From Apus apus (lineage: Eukaryota > Chordata > Aves > Apodiformes > Apodidae), in NCBI RefSeq assembly GCF_020740795.1, contig NC_067285.1, forward strand, positions 91,099,152 to 91,163,151: a DNA stretch of 64,000 nt, read 5' to 3'. The notes under the pieces are model-generated. The model ran no database searches. It had not been told where the DNA came from and worked only from the letters and a program-made list of their open reading frames with translations. Below, piece by piece: positions 18,187 through 45,045 of the stretch (its first letter is position 1; each line of letters begins with the position of its first letter). Made by a program: the position numbers and the translations under genes.

Positions 18187-18743
18187 TTAAGCTGCTTTCC
18201 CAATGATCAGCATGCTCATAAAAAACACCATGATAAAAAAAATCCACATGAAAAATCTGTCCATCACTTTTGCGACTTTTTTCCACTCAATTCCTTTGGC
18301 CTTGTTTGCTTTATGGTCTCGAACACAATTAGCAATATACTCAATATTTTTAATTAGCATTTTGTAACAGGAACAGCAATTAACAGTCTCCCTAATATTT
18401 TCACCATTAACCCCACAGCTTTTATTCAAACTTCCATTGAGCTTCTCCTTGAGATGACAGTCATCATTCCTATAGGAAAGGTGATTCCTTACTTCTCTGT
18501 GCCTCCTCTGACATCTGTCATCCCCCTCTAACTTACGCTCTTCCCCCTTCTCTCTTTTCGGACTTGTGCAATTTTCACCCACATCATAAACAAAAAAGAT
18601 TTTTGACATGTAGTCCAAAATAACCACCCTGGCCCATTGTGGAACAGGCTTTGCTTCTGAGCCACAGTGATGGAGATTCATTATAATGATCGTCAGTGCA
18701 GTGGAAGCTGTGATCATCGTCATAGTTGCTATGTAATACTTTC
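18187..18743 (-). CDS. CHRNA9: CHRNA9 coding exon 5 (M3, cytoplasmic loop, M4, stop)
   Basis: The exon begins after TTCTAG with GAAAGTATTAC, completing the split Gly302 codon, and ends with the stop codon at 18187-18189. It carries M3, the M3-M4 cytoplasmic loop rich in Lys, Arg and Glu, and M4 ending IIGKAA. The loop is the most variable part of the family and differs most from mammals. Confidence 0.96.
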
Positions 18744-21700
18744 CTAGAACACAAAATAAAATCATATTACAGATGCAACTCTAAAAAAAATTCAATGTAA
18801 CTGTAACAATAAGTGCTAATGATAAGTGCAAGTGAAACCAGTTTTTAATTACCTGTATTATCTATACTTGGATTACACTTAATTTACCATTTAAAAACAC
18901 AGATTAAAGCCATTCAAGTAAAACCTCATACTTGTTACTGGCATGCCTTTATCAGATGAGTGACTATTGTATTAGCATGGTAAATACTTGCAAGCCAAAA
19001 CCTCTGATTTCTCAAAATACACTTATTCAGAAAACAGCTTAAAAGTGTTTATCAGGAGCCTTGCTCTTTTCCTGATGTCCGTAAAACCCCAGTGTAGACA
19101 GCTTCACCTGGCACATTTGAAATCCCACTTCCTGATGTATTAACAAAAGGGGTGGTAATGTTTTGTTGGAGCTATTGATACATCCTACACCAGCGTTCGC
19201 ATTCACACAGACCAGGGAATATCCAGACCACAACTACTGTACTAACAACTAAGAGCTCAGGCACAGAGCTGAAAGGTGGCTCTGTTGCCACCCTTCTTGA
19301 GATTTGCTGTTTCTTCAGAAAGCACAAATTTCAGTATAACTAGAACAAACAGGAACAGAGCTTGTTCTGGCCAGGAACAGATAGTAAAAAGGGTGAACGC
19401 AAGCTGTGGCCCTCAGCCACTGCTTGTCACAAGGGAAGTACACAGGTGAGCAGCTAAACTGCTGTGGCTTGTGCCTATGCAAAGAGGCAGCTCCCAGCCC
19501 TGCTGTGGTCTTGTGGAGCCTCTGCAGGAAAAGCGAGGGCTGGCATCCATGACACAGGATGTGACACAGACAAGCACGATGGGATCCCAGTTTCTAAAGG
19601 GGTTGGAAAGGATGGTGAGGAGAGTGTGAGAAGAGAGAAAGCAGACTGAGGTCAGGTCCTGACTCCTTAATGTAGACAGTGTGATAGGAAGGTAGGGAAG
19701 TTACTCCACTACAGCAAGTCTGTATTCTAGGGAGGAACAGTTGCTGCTGGTGTGGGAAATGCATTCAACTTTCCTACTCATGGACCGGTGTTTTGTCTCA
19801 GTTAAGCCATGCAGGTTTTCATAAAAACAGTAATAATGAAAATTAAAATTGTTATCTTAATTAAGCTGGAAGCTAGAGTGAAGTTAACAGTATTTCTAGT
19901 CCTCCAGAAATTCTATCAGGGTAGCTGGGCAGCCTCCAGCCCCAGGGGTGGATCAACCAGGGGCAAAAGGGTCTTGGCAGAAGGCAGGTGCTAAACACCA
20001 CCCTTTTGCTACCCATCAGCTCTTTTAAACCCTCAGGCCTAGAATGAAATTCAGCATAATGGATTGCTAGGCATTATATTTCAATGTAACTATTGTCAGA
20101 CATCAAGTCAACCCTGAACATCCCAGCCAGGTCATCCAACCACCTGATCTGACAGAAATGTATGTTTAAACAGTCTGATCTTGTGTGTACAGCTCTTGCT
20201 TACACTTTGTACGCCAGTTCTAAAATTGTTTTCTATTACTAAGTTTATTACAATGTGACAAAATAATTCTAAATGTCTAATTATATTTAATAAATACAAA
20301 ATAGCTAGCTAATATAATTAAAATAAATACAAAATAACTTTAAAGAGCTTCAGCATACCTGTAAAAATTCCATGCATGTTGTATTTCACTATGTTTTAAA
20401 TATGCAACACCTATACCTTATCAGAAGTCACAAACAACATATAGAATCATAGAATCACAGAATGTTAGGGGTTTGAAGGGGCCTCCAGAGACCATTGAGT
20501 CCTACCCCCTGCCAAAGCAGGACCACCTAGGGCAGGCCACACAGGAATAAATCCAGGTGGGTTTTGAAAGTCTCCAGGGAAGAAGACTCCTTGCCATAAA
20601 GCCCTGCTATTATTAAGCCATGTTTAAAGACAAAACATGTAAAACTCACCTATCAAAGGTACACTTTCAGATGGAGGCATGATCTCTGCAACCATCAGCT
20701 GAAACACAGTCAGAGCAAGAAGAACTGTAACACCCAGAGACACTTTTTCCCCAGAGTCTGCAGGGAGATAGAATCCCAGTGGGGCCAGGAAAGAGATCAA
20801 AACACAAGGCAGCAACAGATTAAATATGTAGAATGAAGACTTCCTTTTCAAAATCAGTGTGAAGGTCACATCTGGATAAGGCTCAGAGCAGCAGCCATAA
20901 GTTATGACATTCTTAACTGCTGGCATACCATGAACCTCCCATTCCACATCTTCTACGAAGTCAGAGAGGTCACCACTATCAAGAGAATTAATGATGTCTA
21001 CCTGATTACCATTATAGGTCCAGGACCCAAATGTAAGGTTGCACTGCTGGCTGTCAAAAGGAAAATAAGATACATCCACTACACATGAGCTCTTTGTGAT
21101 AGCAGGTGCATCCCAAGTGATTTTTCCATCATATCTCAACACAATATTAGTATTCACTGGTTCTGAAAAGTCATCATCAGCCCTAAAAGACAGAAAAGTG
21201 ACAGTCAGGATCAACAGGCAACAACTTAATGTGTAGGGCAGGGAGGTAGGGAAAGACCTTTGCTTCACACCATTAAAAGCATGCTTCTGAAGTCATGTTA
21301 TTTATTTATACTAAGCTTTATTAGGAACTTACTATTACCTATCATTTACAGGCACCAGTGCCCATTAATGCCTTTGTGGACACAATCTTCCAGAGCTCTT
21401 CAGCAGCCTCAGCAGAAAGCACTTCAAACTGCCAGAGTATTCAATTCCCAGCGCAGAGAAATTCAGAACAGTTTTGCTGTGTAGCATAATCAATTGCCAA
21501 ATCCTCTCTATGGCTTTATTGCAAAATATTTAGATGATCAACAACAAATGTTAAGACAACAAACAAACCCCTTGCTAAGGTAAGGTGAAGAGATGAAAGT
21601 TCAAACTCTGTGGGTCAGTTCCTCCTTCAACCCCTTCCCTCAGACTGAATATTCAAGCTTATTTTCTCCAGTCACACTCACTTGTTGTACAGGACAATAT

Positions 21701-23874
21701 CTGGTCTCCAAACCAAATTGCTTGGAATCCTGATAGAATCCAACCCATCATATTTATCCTTGTCCCATTTGAGGTAAGCATCATACCAGCTTTGTCGAAT
21801 CCATAAGTAAGCCGACAAAATTTGGTTCCTTTCATCCTGCATAAAAATGTAGAAATATTTCTAGCTGAAGGTGACAAAAATCACATCTTAGATGGAGACA
21901 ACAATTGTTGTATAGCTTTAAAGTAGTGTCCAAAAAAAGGCCAGAATGCTGACAGGCCACAAGAGAACAAGTACATATGCCCATACAGGGTACAAGGGGC
22001 TTGCATCCTCCCTAGCTTTAATCATAATTGTCTAAGGCTCCCAGTACATTAAGAATTTGCTTTTGTGAGCTTCAGAGTACCAAACAGCTAACAGATTCAG
22101 CCTACCAATTTCTTTGAAAGCTTGGTGAGGCCTCAAAGGTGTAATTCAAAAGTCAGAAAAGAGATTTTCTGGTCTCCTAGACACATTTTCTTTTGCCTAA
22201 AAAAGTATATCTGGTTAAATCAAATTTATTTTAAAAGTTACTTAAGGCTAAAATAGGGCATTTATGTAGAAATTAATTGCATCTTAGAAAAAGCATTTGT
22301 TCTTTCTATTTAAAACTCAGCAAAAGTTGCCTGGAGGGTGTGATACCAACACCTAACAACAGAAGAAGTCTTAACAGTACAGTAGCTGTAAGTTTGCAAA
22401 CTTAAAATGAAAATCTTAGTGCTGCAATCAGATAAGAATCTACGAAGAACTGGAAAACATGACCCTCGTGAGGAAGGATTATTGAAGTTGTCACAACAAA
22501 ATGCAAGCTGCCTTTCCTACGCCAAGCAAAAGGTTTACAGCTAGTACATTTCCACGTATCTTTAGAAAAAGAGAACTGCACTCTTACCATATCTTTAATT
22601 TGGGACAATGTGATCTGAAGGGTGACATTCAGTACTTTATCTGTGTCTTCCACTGGTCTTAGAGCATTTGAGTAGTCTTCAAACAGTTCATTAAACAGCA
22701 TGTGAGCATATTTTCCTTTCGCTGATTTTACATCTAGGTAACATTTATTCAGCACATCAGGTTAAGAACTGAGCAGTAGCAGAAGATATCCTCTTTCTAC
22801 AGCTTCAAGTAGCATTTGCTGCAACTATATTAAACATTCACACACTGTAGAATATAATTTAGTGCAAAATCAGAAGTATACCTAATGAAGCTATTCAAAT
22901 AAGGACAGCATTCACCTGTAGAAAATGAATAGCTAATTCTAGCATTCCACACCAACCAAAAAAACCCTCTACATCCATAGATTCCTGCCTGTTTTGAAGG
23001 CAAATATCAGTACCTTTATTTTACTGGTGTTTTTCACAGGCAAAGAGATTACTGACTTACAGTCATACATCTGCCAAACTAAAATTAGAAGCAAAGTCTG
23101 AGGTCAAACCTATTCCCTGGCTAATAACTTCTGATTTTTCCCTAGATGCAGCACTGAGATTCATACTACTTTCAGAATTTACTCTTTCTTTTTTAACTAC
23201 CTCCTGGAAAAAGTCTGAGCTGCTGTTCTTCACAAATTGGCAACTGCATGATGAGCACATCCTTGCACTAACAGCTTTTCCAAACCATGTACTTAGAGAT
23301 GGTTCCTGCTATCCAGGCTTAGTCACTAAAGATCATTCACTGAAACTTTAGGTTTTAAATGACAGTTTTGCTGTTCCACACCATTTTGTGCATCACAGTT
23401 TCTGTAGGCAGTCTTTGTATTACCTTTAGATAGATTCTCACATTCTGCCAGCAAAGGGCAAGGACAGTAACATTCAAGACTTGCACAAATGCCAGCTGGC
23501 ACTACCTAGGAAGCAAGTGCTTTGGAGTGTATCACTCTCTGGTGACTCACAGTGACTTCCTGGACTAATAAAAACAAACCTTTCTGATTAAAAAGAAATC
23601 CTAGCAAATCAAAGCTTCACAAAGAATGCTTAAGTTCTAGCTGTACGTGATCATTCACTTTGTCTTTGCATCAATGAGACAAAATAAAATGAAACAGATG
23701 AAAGACTTGAAGACTTCAACTATGTAAGACATATCAGGATAGTAGCTCCTATCTGAGTAAAATAAACCTCAATGCAACATTTAGCTATTGAGCAGTATTC
23801 TCACCTTGAAGCATCACTGCTGTAAACAGCAACCAGAGAGAGATGGAGAAGGAGGACAGGCTATTTCTCTTCAT
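18187..23874 (-). CDS. CHRNA9: Nicotinic acetylcholine receptor subunit alpha-9 (five coding exons)
   Basis: This gene codes the alpha-9 subunit of the pentameric acetylcholine-gated, calcium-permeable channel which, usually with alpha-10, mediates efferent inhibition of hair cells. Coding exons on the minus strand are 23805-23874, 22588-22733, 21682-21836, 20650-21182 and 18187-18743; every junction has GT...AG and the phases agree, giving 486 residues, close to the usual alpha-9 length of about 480. It has a signal peptide (1-23), an extracellular ligand domain with loop A Tyr122, the Cys-loop pair Cys157/Cys171, loop B Trp178 and the alpha-type vicinal cysteines Cys221/Cys222. M1 (about 240-262), M2 (about 269-289), M3 (about 304-326), a long variable cytoplasmic loop and M4 (about 461-482) follow. 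Possible N-glycosylation sites are Asn59 and Asn172. No frame break is seen. The alpha-9 assignment rests on the [16 protein letters not shown] and M2-M3 region. Confidence 0.97.
18744..20649 (-). other. CHRNA9 intron 4
   Basis: The largest intron, about 1.9 kb, with GTGAGT at its 5' end and TTCTAG at its 3' end. It contains a CR1 fragment close to the donor and otherwise AT-rich sequence without recognisable features. Confidence 0.9.
20441..20595 (-). mobile_element. CR1 LINE fragment in CHRNA9 intron 4
   Basis: A minus-strand CR1 3' end. On the plus strand it starts with the reverse of the tail (ATAGAATCATAGAATCACAG) followed by the block GGAGGCCCCTT-like and the conserved region up to the AGACTCC block. 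It sits about 55 bases from the exon 4 donor and has the same orientation as the gene. Confidence 0.88.
20650..21182 (-). CDS. CHRNA9: CHRNA9 coding exon 4 (Cys-loop, loop B, loop C, M1, M2)
   Basis: The exon starts after TTTTAG and ends ATAG before GTGAGT. It codes residues 125-301 plus the split codons at each side, including the Cys-loop with 13 residues between the cysteines, the SWTYNG loop B, the adjacent cysteines of loop C and the pore-lining M2 segment. Confidence 0.97.
21183..21681 (-). other. CHRNA9 intron 3
   Basis: About 0.5 kb, bounded by GTGAGT and a TTTTAG acceptor with a pyrimidine tract. I see nothing else in it. Confidence 0.9.
21682..21836 (-). CDS. CHRNA9: CHRNA9 coding exon 3 (loop A region)
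   Basis: 155 bases after a TTTATGCAG acceptor. It codes residues 73-123, starting at the DERNQIL motif and ending in the [10 protein letters not shown] motif that holds loop A Tyr122; the last lysine codon is split across the junction. Confidence 0.97.
21837..22587 (-). other. CHRNA9 intron 2
   Basis: About 0.75 kb of AT-rich sequence with a GTAAGA donor and GCAG acceptor. I see no repeat or exon in it. Confidence 0.88.
22588..22733 (-). CDS. CHRNA9: CHRNA9 coding exon 2
   Basis: It codes the start of the mature extracellular domain up to the IKDM motif, ending before GTAAGA. Two acceptors in the same frame are possible: CTAG ending at 22734 (exon from 22733) or TCAG ending at 22722 (exon from 22721, four residues shorter). 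I use the longer one. Asn59 in an NVT context is a likely glycosylation site. Confidence 0.93.
22734..23804 (-). other. CHRNA9 intron 1
   Basis: About 1.07 kb, GTGAGA donor. No repeat element or further exon recognised. Confidence 0.85.
23805..23874 (-). CDS. CHRNA9: CHRNA9 coding exon 1 (signal peptide)
   Basis: A start codon at 23872-23874 opens a 23-residue signal peptide: basic start (MKRN), hydrophobic core (about residues 11-21) and then the GTGAGA donor after the first base of codon 24. The phase fits exon 2. No ORF longer than this is needed upstream. Confidence 0.88.
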
Positions 23875-34936: not shown

Positions 34937-34942
34937 TTTATT
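34937..34942 (-). promoter_or_regulatory. Polyadenylation signal AATAAA of recombinase-like gene A
   Basis: A canonical hexamer on the minus strand about 245 bases after the gene A stop codon. The distance is nearly the same as for the ATTAAA hexamer of gene B, which supports both. Confidence 0.65.
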
Positions 34943-35186
34943 AATTCACGCTATACAAAACTGTCTGCAGATTTGCTCTGTCAAGACAGACAAGGTCCAC
35001 ACACAGCAGGTTTGACACTCCCCCACCCTCAACACACAGACAACACAAGCTGCAACTGTGAGTGAACTTCAGAGGTCACTGTGAGGTAGAATATTCATTA
35101 CAGGTGTTAAAACTACATTACTGCCAAAGACTAGAAACTATACAGCTAAAAGCCAACTCTACAGAAATAAGGTCATGCATTAGCTT

Positions 35187-36118
35187 CTATTTCCCCATTG
35201 GTCTCCATGGGTATGGTCTCTCTGGCACCAGACAGGGCCACCTTGCCAGGCGAGTGATGTCTTCCCCAGGATACCCGTAGCACGCAGCAGTGACTGCAGT
35301 CCCCAGCCAGAAGGAATGCACACCATAATACTCCGGGCACAGCCCCAGCAGCTGCAGAGCACATCGGAAAACTGTCAGGAACTCCCTCTTTGTTACAGTC
35401 CTATTATCCGAGTGCATAAAGAGGGGTCCTTCCAGCTGAGATCGCACTGTCACATAGCTCCGGAGGGCCAGAACAGGGCACACCCATGGCTCTCCAGACA
35501 ACGAAAGGCTGATGACATGCCTCTCCTGACTCACAGGAGAGTTATTCAGGGAAAACACTGCTCTCCTCTCCATCAGCTGGAGATCACTCAGGTACAGCAG
35601 CTCAGGCTGCAGCACATTACAGCGCTTCATCACCATCTCTCCTATGCGAAGTGCCCCAAAAAAAGCTACAGTAAACAACGCACGAAACAGTAAGCATTCA
35701 TAGTGAGTTATGCAGACAGTCTCCAGAGCTCCTAAGAGAGACCGCAGCATCTCAATTGTTACAGGCAAGTATTTATCCCTCAGGATACCTGCCTGGCGCT
35801 TCAATCCTCTCACCATGCAGCGGGTTACAGGATCTTGCAAAGGATCAGGATTACCAGTCAATTTTGATAAGTAAGACAGTGCTGCCACATACATCACTGT
35901 CTTTGAGGATGAACAAGGAGATTCCGCAGCCAAAAACCCTCTAACTTGCTCCGCTGGAACAGGCCAAGCTGCAGGCATTCCCATGCTTTTCCTAAAGGCA
36001 AGGAATTTCTTCAGTCCTTCCAGGTAGCCTTGCCAATGCTTGCTATTCCCCGAGTACTCCAACAGTGACAAAGTCTTCAGAGGCCAAGGTCCTAAGGGAT
36101 GTTTCTGAGGACAACTTC
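35187..36118 (-). CDS. Gene A exon 2 (recombinase-like core)
   Basis: The exon opens after CTATTGTAG and reaches the TAG stop at 35187-35189 with no break. Its first codons (QKHPLGPWPLK) match those of gene B exon 2 almost exactly in protein but differ at third positions, which fixes the acceptor and frame. Confidence 0.88.
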
Positions 36119-36894
36119 CTACAATAGAGGATCCTTGTTAGCACATGCTGACAACAGTCACAGACGTGCCACTTAAGCAGCAAAAAAGACAATGTTCCTT
36201 AGTGCAATACATCCCTACACAATGCTCTGCTAGTTTGTGTGACTGAAGGTGATTCACACACAGCTACACTCACAGCTATTAAAGAACATGGATACTTTTC
36301 AAATAGGAAGCTGCAAGCAGCATTATCAGGCCCATTTCGGGCACTAGATCTGGTAACACTCGGGGAATTTACAAGTTTGCAGCACAGTAACAGAGAAGAA
36401 AAGCAGAAAGCAAGTTTTGAATCGCGCACTGCTGACACAGTTCACAGAAGCTACAACTCCAAAGGGCACACAACACACTCCCACCAGAAGCCAGCACGTT
36501 TCCCAGCCCAGAACCCCCTCGAGGCTTCCCTCCAAAAGCTCCGGCCTCCCACGAGAACTCGAGCAAAAGACCCATGGAGCCGCTGCCCGGCGGGAAGCGG
36601 GGCCGCCAGCGATCCCCCGCCCCGCACCCAGCGCCCGCTCCCGGGCCCGCCCGCCCCGCACCTACCGCCCAGCGCCGCCCCGCGCCCCGCGGGCTGCTCC
36701 GCGGGCTGCTCCGCGGGCTGCTCCGCCGCCTCGCCCCTCCGCGCTGCTCCCTGGCGGCGCTGCTGCAAGGGGGCTGCTCGCCCAGCCAGGACCAGCTCCA
36801 GCCACTCCAGGCCGGGCTCCCGGGCCAGCAGCGACAGCATCTCCCAAAAAGGCGCGGCGACAGGCGCGGCCGGAGCGCTGGCACCGCAGGACAT
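35187..36894 (-). CDS. Domesticated tyrosine-recombinase-like protein, gene A (two exons)
   Basis: Two coding exons, 36666-36894 and 35187-36118, join in phase 1 (donor GCG/GTAGGT, acceptor TTGTAG) and give 386 residues. The first exon codes a short N-terminus with the block APFWEMLSLLAREPGLEWLE, followed by an Ala/Gln/Glu/Pro-rich tail with three EQPA repeats. The second codes a tyrosine-recombinase core: an N-terminal helical DNA-binding (SAM-like) part at about 95-185 and a catalytic-like part at about 190-380. Landmarks are Arg234 in GALRIGEM (box I), His344 in HSFW, Trp370 in ARW and Tyr379. The His-to-Trp interval (26) and Trp-to-Tyr interval (9) equal those of bacterial XerD. The box II arginine is Trp347 and no hairpin lysine is obvious, so strand transfer is unlikely; DNA binding may remain. 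The domain resembles DIRS/Ngaro or Crypton recombinases. I know of no named vertebrate gene that it matches. The inner start codon at 36892-36894 aligns with the gene B start; an in-frame ATG 15 codons upstream (36937-36939) is an alternative. Confidence 0.85.
36119..36665 (-). other. Gene A intron
   Basis: About 0.55 kb. It begins in the CpG island and turns AT-rich towards the acceptor. The acceptor has a weak pyrimidine tract. Confidence 0.8.
36666..36894 (-). CDS. Gene A exon 1
   Basis: Codes residues 1-76 plus one base. The block around PFWEMLSLL/EPGLEWL matches gene B exon 1. It has a low-complexity Gln/Ala/Glu/Pro tail absent from gene B. Confidence 0.82.
36689..36724 (-). repeat. Coding 12-base tandem repeat, three copies (EQPA)
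   Basis: Three perfect copies of GCGGGCTGCTCC in the plus direction, read on the minus strand as EQPA three times. Because the unit is a multiple of three, copy-number changes would keep the frame. Confidence 0.95.
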
Positions 36895-36968
36895 CGCGGC
36901 AGGACGAACGCCGTGCTCTCCCTTCTCCACGCAGGACACAGGCTCTCACAGCCGCCCCTAATGGGGCA

Positions 36969-36975
36969 TTTTATA
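36969..36975 (-). promoter_or_regulatory. TATA box of gene A
   Basis: TATAAAA on the minus strand, 75 bases before the preferred start codon, inside the CpG island. Gene B has a TATA-like sequence at nearly the same distance. Confidence 0.7.
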
Positions 36976-37100
36976 GCCGGGAGCCGCTGGCAGGGCCTCC
37001 CTACGCTTGGGTGCCCCGAGCAGCCCCGGGCCCGGCCCTTCCCCGGCGGCGGGTGTGAAGCGGCCCTGGGCGGGGGCGCGCACGGAGGAGGGTGCCAGCA

Positions 37101-37619
37101 CTTCTGCCAAGCCCTGAAAGGCTTTACTGATAAGGTTAAATCCATTCCCTGCCCGTTGTTCTCCTAGGGTCTCCGAGGTGTGGTTTCCAGAAAGCCCGCA
37201 GATGATAGCTCGAGGCAGCTGACTCCATCCTGAATTACTCATCAGTCATTCTTTGCAGTTAATTACTGATAGTGCACCTCGGTATTTCACTCACGGTTCA
37301 GTGACATGATCACCCTTCTCTGTAGCAGCTAGCCCTGCTGAATCCCAAAACAAACCAAACAGGCTTCACCCACGGTTTTCCAGTTTCAGCTTCCCTTAGC
37401 ATTTTCCTGAGCGTCCTCATCTCCTTTGGGGTGCCTTCACAGAGCCCCAAAGGCTTCTTCTGGGGAGAGGGTAGCCAGTACCCCACGGCTCTTGGCCACA
37501 CAGGGCACCAGCAGCTGCTCCTCACTGGGACCCTTAAGACCCAGCCCAAAGCTGTGCGAGGACCTCAGCAACCACCATTCCTGGGAGCTTCACCTCCCTC
37601 CAGATTTTACTGTTACTCA
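37101..37619. other. Region upstream of gene A promoter
   Basis: Unique-looking sequence between the gene A CpG island and a CR1 patch. I see no coding exon in it. It may be part of an original shared promoter region for the two recombinase-like genes. Confidence 0.45.
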
Positions 37620-37783
37620 TATAATAATAGAATTGTTTTGGTTGGAAAAGACCTTTAAGATTATGTGTGGTGTGGTCAACACACTGGAGGGAAGGAAGGC
37701 CATCCAGAGGGACTTTGACAGGCTTGAGAGCTGGGCCTATGCCAGCATCATGAAGTTCAGTAAGGCCAAGTGTAAGGTCCTGG
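37620..37783. mobile_element. CR1 LINE pieces in two orientations
   Basis: Bases 37628-37660 resemble the end of a CR1 3' UTR on the minus strand (a TTGGTTGGAAAAGACCTTTAAG block). Bases 37690-37783 match CR1 ORF2 on the plus strand in the reverse-transcriptase end (the block that reads [12 protein letters not shown]). This is a rearranged or double insertion, and the ERV begins directly after it. Confidence 0.75.
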
Positions 37784-37820
37784 TGTTGGAAAATAACTCC
37801 AAAATCTAGAATGATGTGGC
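37784..37820 (+). repeat. Remnant of 5' LTR start
   Basis: About 30 of 34 bases match the first bases of the 3' LTR at 40440 (shared start TGTTGG and the block TAGAATGATGTGG). The rest of the 5' LTR and the first part of the provirus are deleted. Confidence 0.7.
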
Positions 37821-37869
37821 TGAGATGGAGCTGTTCATGGACAGCAGCAGCTTTAGGTCAGAAAAACAC

Positions 37870-39110
37870 TGAAAAGCAGAATATGCTATTGTGACTGCAG
37901 ACTCAGAGATGGAAGCTCAGCCTCTTCTGACAAACACTCAGCCCAGAAAGCACAATTGATCACCTTAATCTGGGCATTGGGACTGACTGAAGGGAAAACT
38001 GTGAATATTTGGCCTGACTCTAAATAAGATTTTGGAGTGGTACATGCACACCAAGCCATTGGGAAGGAAAGAGGACTTTTATCATCACAAGGTGCCCCTA
38101 TAAAATATGCAGAGTTCATTTTGAAATTGCTACAAGTACCTCTGTAGTAATGAAGGAGGTAATGCAAAAAAAACCAACCTTATACATTATTGGAGCAGGC
38201 ATAGCCAAAAGCATTACCAGAAAGTGTGAAATGTGTTTGAAAAATAAACCTAAAATCCAGCCAAGGCCACCACCAGGAGAGGTAAAAAGATGAAATGCAC
38301 CAGGAGATTATTGGCAAATTGAGTTATCCAAACTACCATGACAAAATGGGTTCAGGTATTTGTTGGTATTAGTAGATACTTTCTCAGGCTGGCCTGAGGC
38401 CTTTCCATGTCACACCAATCAGGCAAAGAAAGTAAGTAAAATTATTTTGAAATGAGTCATTCCTAGATATGGAATAACTAGAGGAATGTCATCAGACAGG
38501 AGACCCATTTTATAGGAAAGGTGATACAAGGCCTAGTTAAAGTTTTAGGCATAAAATGGGATTTGCATAACCCTGGGAGACTACAGTCCACTAGAAAGGT
38601 GGAATGGATGAATGAGGCCTTCAAGAGGCACATTAGTAAAATTTGTCAGGAAACTAATACAAAGTGGTTAGATGCTGTACCTTTGACCCTGTTGAGGGCA
38701 AGAGGGACCCCAAAGTCAAAAGAAAAAGTAAGTCCTTTTGAGGTTATGTACGGGAAATCTTATATGGTAAATAGTGATGAATCCAAACCAATATCCTTGA
38801 TTGAAAATCAGAAAGTTAATATCTAATATTTTTAGGGGAAGTGTAGCATTCTCTTGACAGATATTTGCAGCTGAGAACACCCCTGAGACTTGACTCTCTG
38901 ACCCATCCCTTTCAACATGGATAAGTGGAAGGGACCATTCCAAGTTCTGTTAATAATGTACACAGCTGTGAAGCTGGATGGATTCAAGCCTTGGATTCAT
39001 TACACACAGATCAAGAGAGCAGCACCAGAAACAAGTGGACATTGATTGCTCAAGCAGATAACCTTTTACAAAACAAAATCAGAAGGGTCACTAGATTAAT
39101 TGCTGATATT
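37870..39110 (+). pseudogene. ERV pol remnant (RNase H and integrase)
   Basis: Read across frames, the segment resembles the RNase H end of gammaretroviral pol, then the integrase zinc-binding (CxxC) part near 38225, the core, and the C-terminal domain near 38930-39040. Stop codons occur in the RNase H part and in the integrase core, and frameshifts separate the parts. The longest open piece is 38521-38826. It is not functional. Confidence 0.85.
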
Positions 39111-39269
39111 TAATCAGTTTCACATTCAGAGTATATCTAAGGAGCAGTTTTCTGATTTGTTTTTATTTTTTTATTATGTTTCTATATAGGTACACTACTG
39201 TTATAAAGTCTGGCATTTCTTCTTGTCTTCCTGAGCCAGAAGACTAAAGGGAACCAGGAGGGGTGGAAC

Positions 39270-39850
39270 CATAATCAGGAAAACTATGAGAACAGCTAAT
39301 CAAACAAATTGTTGGGTGTGTTCCCATTTTCTGGAGCACAGTGCTAAGGAGGTACTAATAGGGATGTCAGTTCCTTTGAATACGTCCTGGAATAATTTGT
39401 GAGTAAGACCAAAGTTCACAGGAAAGAATGAATCTGATCTTCAAATTTGGGATATGATATGACATCCCAATATTACATAGTGGGACATTATCCATACTGT
39501 AATTGGTAATGTTCCAAAAGGTAGTGATTGGTAAAGCACAAAAGGTCCTGCCTCCAAATTGGTCAAGTGATGAGGACCACAGGCCATGGTTAAGATCATT
39601 AATGAAAAGACAAAAAAGGAATAGAAAGACCCACGAAATTTCACTCCTTTGCCAGATGGTTTATTCCTTGTCTCAGAGTAAGTGAATTGGAATAGGCCAT
39701 AGTCTGCCTTCACATAACAGATTTGAAACAGAACTTCTGATGCTGTCCTTGCTTTACAAGAAGAAGCATCAGAAGAGGCAAAAAAGGCTACCCAAAATGT
39801 ACCCAGAAGGCTGGTGTTCTTAGCCTCTCGAGGCATGCACAGTAATTAAC
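39270..39850 (+). pseudogene. ERV env remnant
   Basis: A short piece with a CWxC motif near 39310 of the type found in the surface subunit of gammaretroviral envelope proteins, followed by degraded sequence with stop codons and frameshifts. No transmembrane subunit is seen before the CR1 insertion. Assignment rests on the CWxC motif and position between pol and the 3' LTR. Confidence 0.55.
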
Positions 39851-39854
39851 CAGC

Positions 39855-40372
39855 AGCTGTGTGTAGGTAGATCAGAGTGGGAGAGAATTGCTACTGACTG
39901 GGGGTCTATTACAGACCTCCTGATCAGGACAAGGGAGTTGATGAGGCTTTCTACAGGCAGCTGAAAGCAGCCTCACAATTACAGGCCTTGGTCCTCATGG
40001 GGGATTTTAACTAACCAGGTATTTGCTGGAAGGCCTACACAGCCAGCCATTCACAGTCTAGGAGGTTCCTCCAATGCATCGAGGATAACTTCTTGATACA
40101 AATGGTGGACAAACCAACTAGGAGAGGAGCACTGCTGGATCTTGTGCTCACCAACAAGGAGGGTCTGGTTGAAGCGGTGATGGTCAGTGGCAACCTGGGC
40201 TGCAGTGATCATGAGATGGAGTACAGGATCCTGTGTGGGAGGAACAGAATACCTAGCAGGACCAGAACCCTGGACTTCCACATGGCTGACTTTGACCTCC
40301 TCAATCAATTGTTAAGGGAAGTCCCCTGGGACAGGGTACCTGTAGGTGCTGTTTGGCACTCAGCGATCATCT
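39855..40372 (+). mobile_element. CR1 LINE fragment (endonuclease part), nested in the ERV
   Basis: The plus strand reads as CR1 ORF2 endonuclease: the YYRPPD motif near 39906, the MGDFN motif near 39998 and the SDHE motif near 40206, with a stop codon after MGDFN. It is truncated at both ends and has no 3' tail here, so a deletion or recombination took place. Confidence 0.88.
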
Positions 40373-40439
40373 TGATGTGCTTGATGTGAGAATGAGACTT
40401 ACCTAAAGAATGCCCTAAGACAAGTCTCAAAGGGGGGAT

Positions 40440-41103
40440 TGTTGGGAAATAACTCAGAAATTTAGAATGATGTGGTTATTTTGTGTAAGATGTACTCTGT
40501 CTCTATATATACAAAAGTTAAAATTGCAGTCAGAGAAACACGGAATTAGTACCACAGTCAGCACTGAGCAAGGACATCCTGCAATAATTAGGCCTTGGAG
40601 AAGGCAATTAATCAAGAGGCTTAGAGAGTGTCTCATGTAAATCACCAACTTGGCAGAGAAGACTGGAGGTCTATATAGATAATTGGATCTAAGGAATGCA
40701 GAAGTGATAAAGAAGAAACAAAATCAAGAAGATTTGACAGCTAAACCAGTCTTGGGCAGTTGAAGATGTAGAAGTTGTGATATTGTGTCCTTGAGGTGAA
40801 CTTAGCTCATTATAATGTCATTATGATACTAAAAATCACACTCCCAGGTCAAAAAGTGCCCCTGCCCAGGTGAAGACCCTTTCCCTCAGCCTGCATGAGA
40901 GTATAAAAAGTGATGTATCTACATGTAAATTGCTAACCAAGCACTGTAAGGAGGATGGATCTGGAAGCTTACTAACTTTATCGTTTTGTGTATCAATACG
41001 TCCTGGAAAATCTCATCTGGTGTGCTTGATGTGTGGGAAGGCACCCAGCACCCAGCTTTGTACAAACTTGCAATAAATAACAATGCCTCCTTCCTAAACG
41101 TCA
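40440..41103 (+). repeat. ERV 3' LTR
   Basis: Starts TGTTGG after the purine tract, has TATAAAA at 40902-40908 and AATAAA at 41072-41077, as expected for U3, R and U5. The end is placed at 41103 from a terminal CA, but this is uncertain. It lies about 250 bases upstream of the gene B start codon and points in the same direction, so it could give gene B an alternative promoter. Confidence 0.75.
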
Positions 41104-41197
41104 TCTCTTTGCGTTTCGGGAGCGATCTGGAAACGGCGATGTCCCGGCCGGCCCTGCCTCCGCCCTCCCCAGGGCGACCCCGGGCCGTTCCGCTCCA

Positions 41198-41232
41198 GGC
41201 GGGAACACCGCGGCAGATGGGCTGTTCCCGCC
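41198..41232. promoter_or_regulatory. Inverted pair of E2F-like sites
   Basis: GGCGGGAACA (41198-41207) and its exact reverse complement TGTTCCCGCC (41223-41232) are 15 bases apart. TTCCCGCC fits the E2F consensus. The pair is about 60 bases upstream of the TATA-like sequence of gene B. E2F6 sites of this sort often control germline genes, but binding here is inferred. Confidence 0.5.
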
Positions 41233-41291
41233 CGGGCCCGCGGGGAGGCGAGGGGAGGCCAGGGCAGGCACAGCCCCGCCCGGGCCCGCGC

Positions 41292-41298
41292 TATAAGG
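41292..41298 (+). promoter_or_regulatory. TATA-like box of gene B
   Basis: TATAAGG in a GC-rich setting, 65 bases before the gene B start codon, matching the position of the gene A TATA box (75 bases). Confidence 0.6.
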
Positions 41299-41356
41299 GG
41301 CAGCGCGGCGCCGTCCCGCAGGCCGTGCCGCCCCGCACTGCCGCATCCCGCGGGCC

Positions 41357-41510
41357 ATGCAGCGCGGCGGGGCCGAGCCGCCCGGCGCCCCTGCCCCGTT
41401 CTGGGCCATGCTGGAGCTGCTGCGGAGCGAGCCGGGGCTGGGCTGGCTGCCGCGGCCTGCGGGCGGGTGGTGCGGGCCCGGCGGCGCGGAGGCTGGCGGC
41501 GCCGGAGCTG
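41357..41510 (+). CDS. Gene B exon 1
   Basis: Codes residues 1-51 plus one base. The hydrophobic FWAMLELL and EPGLGWL blocks align with gene A exon 1; the Gly/Ala-rich tail is shorter and has no EQPA repeats. The donor CTG/GTGAGT is strong. Confidence 0.83.
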
Positions 41511-42735
41511 GTGAGTGGGACGTGGCTGCGTGCGGGGGGAGGCTGGCAGAGGTGTGGTAGGTTCTTCCCTGGGATCTGCTGCGCGGGGAGGCTTCTAGGA
41601 CTCTGCGTGTCCTACCGACTCTGTTGCTGGTGTGTATCTTTGCTGCTCTCGGCCCCTTGTGCCGCTTGAATGAGGTGCAGAAGGTGCCTCGCAGAGTTGC
41701 AGAAATGTTACTGTAGTGGGCTGGGCCTGTTTGGTGGCTTGATGTGTTGCTTTAAAGAGAAAAATCAGTAGGGCTTTTGTCTTTTTGAGAATTTAATTAT
41801 TCTCCTGTGGATTTCTTTCAGCAGGTGAACTCGGCCAAGTTCCTGAGAAGCATCCCCTGGGCCCTTGGCCCCTGAAGGCTCTGCTCTTACTGGAGGGTTC
41901 AGGAGATAGCAACTTATGGCAGGTCTACCATGAGGGCCTGAAGACTTTCCTTGCCTTTAGAGAAGGCATGTCTCTGTCTGTGTCCTGGCCAATTCCAGTG
42001 GATCAAGTGAGAGGCTTCCTGGTCGCAATGGAGTCTCAGAATCTGCCTCCTGCAAAAATAGTAATGTATATGGAAGGACTGTCCTTCATCTCCAGGATGG
42101 TAGATCACAGTGATCCTCTTCAAGATCCTGTTATCTGTCACATGATATCAAGGTTGAAATGTAGGAGTGGCCCTTCAACTGATAAATACTCTCCTGTGAC
42201 TATCGAAGTGTTAAGATCTCTCCTGGGGACTCTGGAATCTGTGTGTAGCTCTCCTTATGAGTGTCTGTTGTTCCGGGCCATGTTTACTGCAGCTTTTTTT
42301 GGTGCACTCCGTATAGAAGAGATGGTGACAGGTCACCAGAACACAGCACATCCAGAGCTCCTGTACTTGAGTGACCTCCAGATGACCGAAGGGGGTGCAG
42401 ACCTTTGTTTGCATACCTCTCATATGGGCCAAGAGAGGTATTTGATCCAGCTGGGATTTTCTAAAGAGCTGTGGGTATGTCCTGTTGAAGCTCTCCGTAT
42501 CTATGTGGCAGCACGGCCACAAGGAGAGGGCCCTCTCTTCGTGCACTCAGATGGTATGGCTGTGACAAAGAGGGAGTTCCTAACTGTCTTCCGCCACGCT
42601 CTTGGGCTTGCTGGACTTCCTCCACACCGGTATGGTGTGCATTCCTTCTGGCTGGGGACTGTTGCAACAGCACTATCTCATGGGTATTCTATTGAAGCTG
42701 TTAACAGAATAGCAAGGTGGTGGGGAACATCCTGA
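41357..42735 (+). CDS. Domesticated tyrosine-recombinase-like protein, gene B (two exons)
   Basis: Exons 41357-41510 and 41825-42735 join in phase 1 (donor GTGAGT, tandem acceptor CAGCAG) to give 354 residues, or 355 with the proximal acceptor. It is a paralogue of gene A: the same first-exon block (APFWAMLELLRSEPGLGWLP), the same HPLGPWPLK linker after the junction, and a recombinase core about 60% identical by eye. Landmarks are Arg214 in GALRIEEM, His324 in HSFW, Trp327 in place of the box II arginine, and Trp350 in ARW. The stop codon comes four codons after Trp350, before the position of the nucleophilic tyrosine (gene A Tyr379), so it should be inactive as a recombinase. The start codon context is CGGGCCATGC. 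The frame is otherwise intact. Role unknown; DNA binding or regulation of gene A-like partners is possible but speculative. Confidence 0.83.
41511..41824 (+). other. Gene B intron
   Basis: About 314 bases, with a pyrimidine-rich 3' end (GGATTTCTTTCAGCAG). The position and phase are the same as in gene A. Confidence 0.82.
41825..42735 (+). CDS. Gene B exon 2 (recombinase-like core)
   Basis: Begins with GTGAAC after CAGCAG and ends at the TGA at 42733-42735. The reading frame stays open for 34 codons after the TGA until a TAA. It codes the helical N-terminal part and the catalytic-like fold described for the whole gene. Confidence 0.87.
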
Positions 42736-42984
42736 AGAAGACATTATTCCATCTATCTGTTGGGCTTCCATAGTAAGGGGCATCTTCTGCAATGCAGAAA
42801 TGTTATACTTTATATAGAACAAAGTTTCAGTGCTCTGTAAAGTTGCAGAGAAGGTAACTAGTATGAGATTACTTTTTTCACCTGGGATAGTTTTGATAAT
42901 GTGTCATGGTTTTAAAACTGCTGTCAGTTATGGTTTGGTGTCCATACTATTTGCATGTTTGTTCTGGTTGTATTTTGACCTTTT

Positions 42985-42990
42985 ATTAAA
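42985..42990 (+). promoter_or_regulatory. Polyadenylation signal ATTAAA of gene B
   Basis: The hexamer is about 250 bases after the gene B stop codon; the common variant ATTAAA is used. Gene A has AATAAA at the same distance. Confidence 0.6.
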
Positions 42991-43587
42991 CTGCATTTTC
43001 TTTTAAGAATTTCTCTAGTCTTATCTTTTACACCCTGGTCAAAGGCCATTCATCACAATGGTGATGAGAACTTGGTACAAGCAAGCATCCTTTTTACTGT
43101 ATAGTGTAATGAGAAGTAAAGCTGACTGATGGTCAGTGACTGGAAGCTGTGAGTGTGGAGGGAATTCAGCTGTTAACTGATGTGACACAAGCAGGGAAGT
43201 TGATGCTCTTGTTGTAGTTCCATAGCAGCTGCATCCAACCTGAGCTGTTGCTGCTGCAGCCTCAGTCTCCTGATTTATAGAAGCCTTCCCCTTGATAGTA
43301 TTAAAATCCTTTGCTAATCCCTTTATGGTGACCAAAAGTAGCCCTTGACTGAAATGTGGCTAACGCATTAGGGATGACCCTGCTCTGTTCAAAGGATCCA
43401 TTGTAGCAGAGAACTTGAGATAGCTGTAACAAATAACCCTCATTCTGTAGTTAGAGCACTTGTTCAAGAAACACTCAATACAGATTAAATAATCAGTATC
43501 TGAGAAGCAGGATCACAAGAAGGTTGAGTGTCACCTTTCATAATGAGAGTGTTTGAAGTAATGGCATCCCCTGTAGTGCATTACATC
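42991..43587. other. Spacer, nothing recognised
   Basis: Sequence between gene B and a CR1. A minus-strand open frame (43039-43335) has no family motif. Confidence 0.5.
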
Positions 43588-45045
43588 ATAAAATCATAGA
43601 ACGGCTAGGCTTGCAAGGGACCTTAAGGATCATCTAGCTCCAACCCCTCTGCATGACCAGGGACACCTCCCACTAGACCAGGTTGCTCAGAGCTCTGTCC
43701 AACCTGGCCTTAAACACCTAAAGGGAGGGGGCATCCACAACCTCCCTGGACAACCTGTGCCAGTGTCTCACACTGAAGAATGTCTTTCTAATGTGTAACC
43801 TAAATCTACCCTCTTCCAGCTTGAAACCATTACCTCTCATTCTATCACTAAATGTCCTGGTAAAAAGTTCCTCCCCAGCTTTCCTGTAGCCCTTTCAGGT
43901 ACTGGAAGGCTGCTATAAACTCTCCCTGGAGCTTTCTCTGCTCCAGGCTGAACAGCCGCAACTCTCTGAGCCTGTCTTCATAGGAGAGGTGCTCCAGCCC
44001 TTGGATCATCTTCGTGGCCCTTCTCTGGACTTGCTCCAAGAGCTGTATGTCCTTCCTGGTTTTGAGGCTCCAGAACTAGACACAGTACTCCAGGTGGGGT
44101 CTCATGAGTACAGAGTAGAGGGGCAAAATCACCTCCCTTGACCTGCTGCCCACACTTCTTTTGGTGCAGGACATGGCTGGCTTTCTGGGCTGCAATTGCA
44201 CATTGCCAGCTCATGTTGAGCCTCTTATCAACCAACACCCCCGGGTCCTCCTCAAGGATGTTCTCAATCCATTCTGTGCCCAGTCTGTATTTGTGCTTGG
44301 GATTGCCCCAACCCAGGTGCAGGACTTTGTACTTGGCCTTGTTGAGCTTCATGATGTTAGCATGGGCCCACCTATCAAGTCTATCAAGGTCCCTCTGAAT
44401 GGCATCCCTTCTGTTCAGCATGCCAACCACATCACACAGCCTGGTGCCAGCAAACTTGCTGAGGATACACTCAATCCCACAGTCCATGTCACTGACAAGG
44501 ATGTTAAACAGCACCAGTCCCACTACCGACCCTTGAGGAACACCACTCGTCACTGGTCTCCATCTGGACAGCGAGCCATTGATCTCTACTCTCTTCACCA
44601 GACTGCCATGACTTTCCAAATATGATGGAAAACAGCATTGCAACTTCATCTGCCAGCTCCCTTAGGAGCCATGTATGGATCTTGTCAGGTCCCATGGACT
44701 TGTGCACTTTCAAGTTCTTTTTTGCTCTCAAACCTGCTCTTCTACAGTGGGCAGATCTTCCTTTTCCCAGTCTCTGCCTTTGCATTCTGTGACTTGGACT
44801 GTGTGGCCAAAGCCCTTACTGGTGAAGACTGAGTTGCTCAGTACCTCAACCTTCTCCATATCCTGTGTGATGAGGTCTCCTATTTCCTCCTAGAGAGGAT
44901 TCACATTTTCCCTGTTCTGCCTCTTACTACTGATGTACATGTAGAAACCCTTCTTATTAACCTTGATGTCCCTGGCCACGTTTAACTCTGTCTGGGCTTT
45001 AGCTTTCCTAACCTGATCCCTGGCTTTTCAGACAACTTCTTTGTA
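43588..45045 (-). mobile_element. Long CR1 LINE fragment (reverse transcriptase end)
   Basis: About 1.45 kb in minus orientation, with a degraded 3' tail at 43588-43600. The minus strand reads as CR1 reverse transcriptase: the SGVPQGS motif (near 44545), the thumb region with RDLDRLDRWA (near 44380), and the C-terminal RRATKMIQGLEHL region (near 44010). The catalytic YADD-type motif is not intact (the region reads SKFAGT), and frames are broken in several places. It is the longest CR1 in the window. Confidence 0.93.

Follow-up and report, generated by a model that had tools for sequence, protein, structure and literature searches.

The Crypton-derived DUF3504 genes KCTD1, KIAA1958, ZMYM2/3/4, QRICH1 and WOC (Kojima and Jurka 2011, PMC3212892) are host genes that came from a mobile-element tyrosine recombinase (YR). 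In the excerpts of that article used here, all have lost the catalytic tyrosine and the second arginine, and many are described as transcriptional regulators. Here we describe a pair of genes, A and B, in a 64,000-nucleotide stretch of the Apus apus genome (contig NC_067285.1, positions 91,099,152 to 91,163,151; called the window, with positions counted from its first letter). The family of A and B resembles the DUF3504 genes as a set of old, conserved host genes from an element YR whose catalytic residues appear to be lost. Unlike those genes, which are much longer proteins reported in almost all jawed vertebrates (PMC3212892, same excerpts), the A/B family has no DUF3504 match and was found only in sauropsids among the named sources. 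A and B are located between RHOH and CHRNA9, and their domestication is well supported. As the best explanation of the whole, and one we consider rather probable, they form a host gene pair from a captured element YR that now acts as a non-catalytic binding protein or coregulator.

Ndc10, a budding-yeast kinetochore protein (4aco, 6gyp), differs from the A/B family in origin and context, and the QRICH1 structure 9hjt has a title naming SEPHS1, ZFP91 and DNA as the other parts of the complex. The recombinases of DIRS1-like and Ngaro elements are YRs of vertebrate retroelements; the A/B family differs from them in existing as two intact copies at one place and not as a multicopy element. The LAP2alpha domain of TMPO and ZNF451 is likewise a host exon from a DIRS1-like element, with the difference that it derives from the first open reading frame (ORF; gag), occurs in mammals and is not a recombinase (Abascal et al. 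2015, PMC4495291, in excerpt); LAP2alpha and ZNF451 are named as the two human genes with DIRS-derived domains in an excerpt of PMC5753468. MrpR/YopR of phage SPbeta is a YR-fold repressor that lost recombinase function (8a0a, 8bj6, 8bpz; PMC10516654, in excerpt). MrpR is a bacterial phage protein for which no close common origin with the A/B family is claimed, and it keeps the lysine and tyrosine and has lost the first arginine and histidine, nearly the reverse of the A/B family (PMC10516654, in excerpt).

The two genes are arranged head to head and transcribed apart, with start codons separated by 4.5 kb. Their features and the flanking anchor are as follows.

36970..36975, minus strand: gene A TATA-like box (TATAAA on the minus strand), within a CpG-rich stretch
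36666..36894, minus strand: gene A exon 1, start codon 36894-36892, with the PFWEMLSLLAREPG form of the conserved exon-1 motif
36119..36665, minus strand: gene A intron, 547 nt, phase 1, GT..AG
35187..36118, minus strand: gene A exon 2, recombinase-like core-binding and catalytic-type domains, stop codon 35187-35189
34937..34942, minus strand: gene A AATAAA polyadenylation signal, 250 nt beyond the stop
41292..41297, plus strand: gene B TATA-like box (TATAAG)
41357..41510, plus strand: gene B exon 1, with the PFWAMLELLRSEPG form of the exon-1 motif
41511..41824, plus strand: gene B intron, 314 nt, phase 1, GT..AG
41825..42735, plus strand: gene B exon 2, recombinase-like core-binding and catalytic-type domains, stop codon 42733-42735
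42985..42990, plus strand: gene B ATTAAA polyadenylation signal, 250 nt beyond the stop
18187..22761, minus strand: CHRNA9, three frames with receptor-channel domains, flanking synteny anchor

Splicing of A (36894..36666 joined to 36118..35187, minus strand) and of B (41357..41510 joined to 41825..42735, plus strand) gives open frames, with a second possible exon-2 start in B at 41822 (NAGNAG acceptor). Exon 1 measures 229 nt in A and 154 nt in B, and both introns have phase 1 and share one position, ahead of the KHPLGPWPL block. A preliminary description of this DNA had proposed two intact two-exon genes with the same intron position and phase, TATA plus CpG promoters and polyadenylation signals at matching distances, and each of these points stood. 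The TATA-like boxes lie at 36970 (minus strand) and 41292 (plus strand), the CpG observed/expected ratio reaches 0.85 and 0.86 in the 500-bp bins over the two first exons (GC 75% and 73%) and is 0.00-0.37 in the remaining 500-bp bins of 35000-43499, except 37000-37499 (0.52), and each polyadenylation signal lies 250 nt from its stop. The A and B proteins are 60% identical across 297 residues; a comparison of their promoters and introns gave no similarity except short matches at E 0.11 or worse. The locus is next to CHRNA9, as had been noted: this gene lies in the window on the minus strand, below the pair (best PDB match alpha-9, E 2.6e-72), and RHOH is an open 191-codon minus-strand frame located 1.2-1.8 kb past the upper end of the window and outside it.

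The first exons also show two smaller features. In exon 1 of gene A, a perfect 12-bp tandem repeat (3.3 copies, 36687-36726) encodes the protein's AEQP repeats. Exon 1 is shorter in some predictions of both A and B (P0001, P0003, P0034, P0037) and stops near EP or EPG; both window genes lack a GT there, so Apus apus seems not to have this alternative donor.

Judged by its sequence matches, the family is homologous to phage-integrase-type YRs, on their integrase-like side. Two outside YRs of this type were matched at E 7e-12 and 2e-8 among 5.8 billion sequences, and the family profile scored 55 and 50 bits on them, with controls run. The predicted fold is Cre-like, with a core-binding helical domain and a catalytic-type domain. 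In a first structure model the catalytic domain was unreliable, with a predicted local distance difference test (pLDDT) score under 50, and a later model was better; QRICH1 fell outside the 50 rows listed for the better model and was given no weight. The matches, the predicted fold and the identity of A to B uphold the earlier proposal of related proteins with a YR fold. The two exon-2 frames gave 0 families when scanned with Pfam and PHROGs, and there is no Pfam-recognised added domain, leaving a protein made of a YR and a first exon in which no domain is recognised. Some members had scattered, weak matches to unrelated Pfam families; these were taken as chance, as were 8cwy and 8cws (E 0.005) from a phmmer search of B against PDB. 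The match of profile A3 to Cre in PDB (E 1e-11) was not counted as independent, as A3 includes P0085 and P0086.

We infer that these proteins are catalytically dead and do not cut DNA, since the R-K-H-R-[H/W]-Y active site is not found complete in the aligned sequences. Residues were counted in 86 rows, made up of 84 proteins plus both window genes, leaving out gapped rows for each column. The catalytic lysine is present in 0 of 82 rows. The column of the second arginine holds W in 73 of 79 rows, C in 4, Q in 1 and R in 1, and the HxxR motif mostly reads HSFW. The tryptophan of ARW is present in 45 of 46 rows, and 45 of the 46 rows that reach it end within 16 residues beyond, the commonest tail being 8 residues. 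Three rows have a tyrosine within 15 residues of ARW, namely those of window A, Willisornis A and one fusion-like prediction, and it is not conserved. A tyrosine 9 residues past ARW is the spacing of the active YRs Cre and XerD; where the family has it, we read it as probable coincidence, the commonest tail ending before that spot. Gene A, or both genes, could still be an active recombinase working on a host site, given that the first arginine, histidine and tryptophan are kept in most A rows, that the window A tyrosine stands 9 residues after ARW and that a gull A protein reads HSFR. The lysine (0/82), the second arginine (1/79) and a commonest tail that ends 8 residues after ARW, before any tyrosine, make such activity extremely improbable.

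The element source was approached through the DUF3504 genes of the same genome. A Crypton origin hidden by sequence drift would match that of other animal YR-derived genes, and the likeness in fold does little for it, being common to YRs in general. DUF3504 (PF12012) was found by Pfam scans neither in the window genes (E up to 10) nor in 52 family members (alignment A4, E up to 1). The Apus apus genome has 16 DUF3504 matches, none at the A/B locus. On the DUF3504 frames of four loci, those among the 16 with long single frames, the family profile scored -0.2 bits or less against 55 and 50 bits on the outside YRs, and hhalign of the family against one DUF3504 locus gave 1.8%. With no detectable likeness to the DUF3504 genes of its own genome, the family was not assigned to Cryptons, and we regard that origin as unlikely.

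The YR sources named for animal genomes in the excerpts of PMC3212892 are Cryptons, DIRS and Ngaro; these excerpts also report DIRS and Ngaro YRs without a DUF3504 match and state that a DIRS-like source is not fully ruled out for two YR-derived genes. With Cryptons eliminated and DIRS and Ngaro the only others named for animals, a source of this kind is likely, so the family probably came from a DIRS- or Ngaro-like YR, an assignment by elimination rather than by direct sequence comparison with DIRS or Ngaro YRs. A lost YR element of another kind is a possible source. An excerpt of PMC9004415 reports further DIRS and Ngaro fossils in human, beyond LAP2alpha and ZNF451, that predate amniotes, so such elements were around. 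Excerpts of further sources report DIRS as absent from chicken (PMC5006616) and from bird genomes (PMC5753468) and as present in Anolis (775 sequences) and in a tortoise (PMC3266345). Other animal YR-derived genes have been assigned to Cryptons in the excerpts of PMC3212892, whereas the A/B family falls on the integrase-like side.

Relatives of the pair were found in many species. Gene B matches 83 proteins at E <= 0.01 in the same 5.8 billion sequences, and a profile search gave 75 proteins at E <= 1 (7999 candidates scored). The named sources, all of them sauropsids, comprise birds from many orders, three turtles, Crocodylus porosus and the lizard Pogona vitticeps; P0077 is close to the Pogona protein and is grouped with it as lizard-type. 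Protein searches in birds, crocodile and turtles, suggested by the preliminary description, thus yielded relatives in all three groups plus a lizard. A lizard-led alignment search recovered three known members and no mammal or amphibian among 7998 candidates scored, which is weak evidence of absence. Viral contigs searched with B, P0085 and profile A3 gave no relative. One protein per species was found in the crocodile and turtles, and A/B pairs in birds. Nearly all of these proteins are named as uncharacterised or hypothetical in the database, one A protein being filed as putative tyrosine recombinase and another as Tyr recombinase domain-containing. A provisional search confined to the open PubMed Central set, with subscription journals outside its scope, found no description of the family.

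The chromosomal place was read directly in Apus apus and through database names and contig sizes in other species. The Pogona protein and one Limosa protein are filed as RhoH isoforms, suggesting the same neighbourhood. A and B come from equal-sized contigs in five birds (Chroicocephalus, Willisornis, Parus, Pitangus, Lamprotornis), and their gene numbers are close in three of these, so the two genes seem to remain neighbours in birds. The exon-1 FW..L motif is present in both window genes and is seen near the N-terminus in 27 of the 86 rows (15 B, 9 A, the crocodile and two turtles), and rows without exon 1 are often partial or otherwise predicted. By this motif, exon 1 is to be taken as belonging to the gene from turtles to birds.

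For copy number, the gene B exon-2 protein was searched against the 1.10-Gb assembly, in which the window lies on a 115-Mb contig. Three places matched genome-wide: gene B, gene A and one piece on another contig with two stops. This piece (G000:C3:26421720-26421881) matches window 42532-42887 at 75% over 364 columns and is plainly a pseudogene, a decayed partial copy of B comprising the coding end and part of the 3' untranslated region. As the 1.1-Gb genome has no dispersed family but just the two intact genes and one fragment, a live element was rejected. The preliminary description had named two outcomes that would speak against its reading, many dispersed copies and a lack of intact orthologues in other birds; the first is absent, and many birds have open frames.

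The tree was built from 42 hand-chosen rows (40 of the 86 fetched proteins and the two window genes) and rooted on the two lizard-type rows. It runs from the lizard type to turtles (91/87), crocodile (89/83 for crocodile plus birds) and birds (94/95). The A and B clades hold 18 rows each, are supported at 100/100 each and are sisters at 94/95; three inner supports (89-94) are below the starred level. Window B groups with the swift Chaetura (99/87). This species-like branching is most simply explained if the sauropsid ancestor had a single gene that was later duplicated on the bird stem. The lizard-type rows also carry HSFW, a point in favour of their descending, with the rest, from an ancestor that had already lost the second arginine. 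Domestication would then predate birds and precede the sauropsid radiation, an age taken from the species found and not from dating. The sister A and B clades, together with the common exon structure, intron phase and exon-1 motif, support the earlier proposal of a single domestication followed by inverted duplication. That domestication appears older than birds, that the proteins appear catalytically dead and that their source is not detectably Crypton go beyond what had been proposed.

Selection was estimated from A and B of the window. Their 297 aligned codons differ at 95 first, 71 second and 143 third positions, and this one pair gives dN 0.31 and dS 1.47. The ratio of 0.21 is rough because silent sites are near saturation, and it is consistent with purifying selection as far as one A-B comparison with such sites can indicate. 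A further reading is that the two genes are an annotation mirage, decaying element fragments with frames open by chance or recent insertion, and one point for it is the C3 fragment elsewhere, a plain pseudogene. With intact relatives in birds, turtles, crocodile and lizard, a species-like tree, an exon 1 conserved from turtles to birds, dN/dS of 0.21 and the place between CHRNA9 and RHOH, we give this reading almost no credence.

C-terminal ends were compared among rows of at least 240 aa (29 of 31 A and 30 of 49 B rows), with A and B labels given by identity to the window copies. The A end is missing or changed in 2 of 29 long rows, one of which still ends SRWPC. Among the 18 B rows with an altered end, P0004 and P0006 are altered only at ARW itself. 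A replaced C-terminus after HSFW (about NPNRxISxVFPQSD) was observed in P0009, P0014, P0018, P0020-P0022, P0036, P0039, P0043, P0048 and P0049; the named ones are all passerine, and P0021 stops early within the replaced end. The replacement looks as if one old frame change had become fixed in this lineage.

Taken as a sequence of events, the favoured explanation would begin with a YR of a mobile element captured once beside RHOH, at the latest in the ancestor shared by lizards, turtles, crocodiles and birds; an inverted duplication in the bird lineage would have followed. Loss of the catalytic lysine, of the second arginine in nearly all rows and of a conserved tyrosine would mean that DNA is no longer cut, and the retained core-binding and catalytic-type domains could act as a clamp on DNA or on other proteins. 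The most likely job would be that of a nuclear coregulator or repressor. A binding role as coregulator or DNA clamp was chosen on the precedents of the dead-site YR fold of MrpR and the regulator DUF3504 genes. The charge of the domains, compared between 50 family rows, some partial, and only the two outside YRs, separates the copies. In the catalytic-type domain, 39 of 50 rows lie within 3 of zero, with extremes of -5 and +9, against +8 and +11 in the outside YRs. The core-binding domain ranges from -4 to +5 in B, -1 to +3 in reptile-type proteins and +2 to +8 in A (window A, +8), against +8 and +10 in the outside YRs. B and the reptile proteins have so little basic charge that they may act through proteins, partners of this kind being no less likely for them than DNA; A, more basic in its core-binding domain, may be the better DNA binder.

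A different role would be that of a restriction factor, in which the dead recombinase binds element DNA or active subunits, poisons their assembly and silences DIRS/Ngaro-like elements, whether still kept for this or a relic. A catalytically dead YR with a kept fold has the shape expected of a dominant negative, and excerpts report DIRS as gone from chicken (PMC5006616) and birds (PMC5753468), with 775 in Anolis (PMC3266345). Both copies are nevertheless intact in Apus apus, with relatives in many birds, though the elements are reported gone; the lizard Pogona keeps the gene while the lizard Anolis holds many elements; and the single A-B comparison (0.21) shows no sign of fast evolution. We therefore consider this role improbable. 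More speculative still, and to be held with very little confidence, is the idea that this is the first known host gene from a DIRS/Ngaro-type recombinase, already fixed when sauropsids began to radiate, a dominant-negative guard that helped clear the elements from birds and then split there into a basic, DNA-binding A and a neutral partner B.

Several observations weigh against a non-catalytic binding protein or coregulator from a captured DIRS- or Ngaro-like YR. The sequence link to YRs comes from two outside proteins, Pfam YR families match 0 of 50 family members, and a family-only profile against PDB found no recombinase and one INO4 match at E 0.48. The DIRS/Ngaro assignment was reached by elimination. 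In the active site, the first arginine is R in 57 of 84 rows and the histidine of HxxR is kept in 74 of 79, more often than a pure binding scaffold needs; the gull A protein P0032 (Chroicocephalus) has HSFR, the catalytic form, and window A and Willisornis A have a tyrosine 9 residues after ARW. The near-neutral charge of B argues against simple DNA binding, one A row (P0053) reaches +9 in the catalytic-type domain, and the charge comparison has two outside YRs as its reference. The selection estimate is a single pair with near-saturated silent sites, and 18 of the 30 long B rows have lost or altered the C-terminal end, indicating weak constraint there. The exon-1 motif was not seen in the lizard-type rows, and their position beside RHOH comes from a database name. 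With these points counted, a non-catalytic binding protein or coregulator still explains the whole best. It adds an unstudied gene pair beside RHOH to the bird genome, in a family that appears to have persisted from before the split between lizards and birds, and the bird A/B pair set against the single crocodile or turtle protein is a natural comparison for uses of a non-cutting recombinase fold.

The surroundings of A and B were inspected for element parts by reading the ORF list and scanning chosen neighbouring frames only. An Rfam scan of the window gave 0 matches. Between the two promoters, retroviral pol-like frame remnants were seen by eye at window 38100-39000, and a Pfam scan of 38482-38823 gave no retroviral match. 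A reverse transcriptase remnant, which we take to be CR1-like, adjoins gene B at 43978-44661 (RVT_1, E 1.9e-7).

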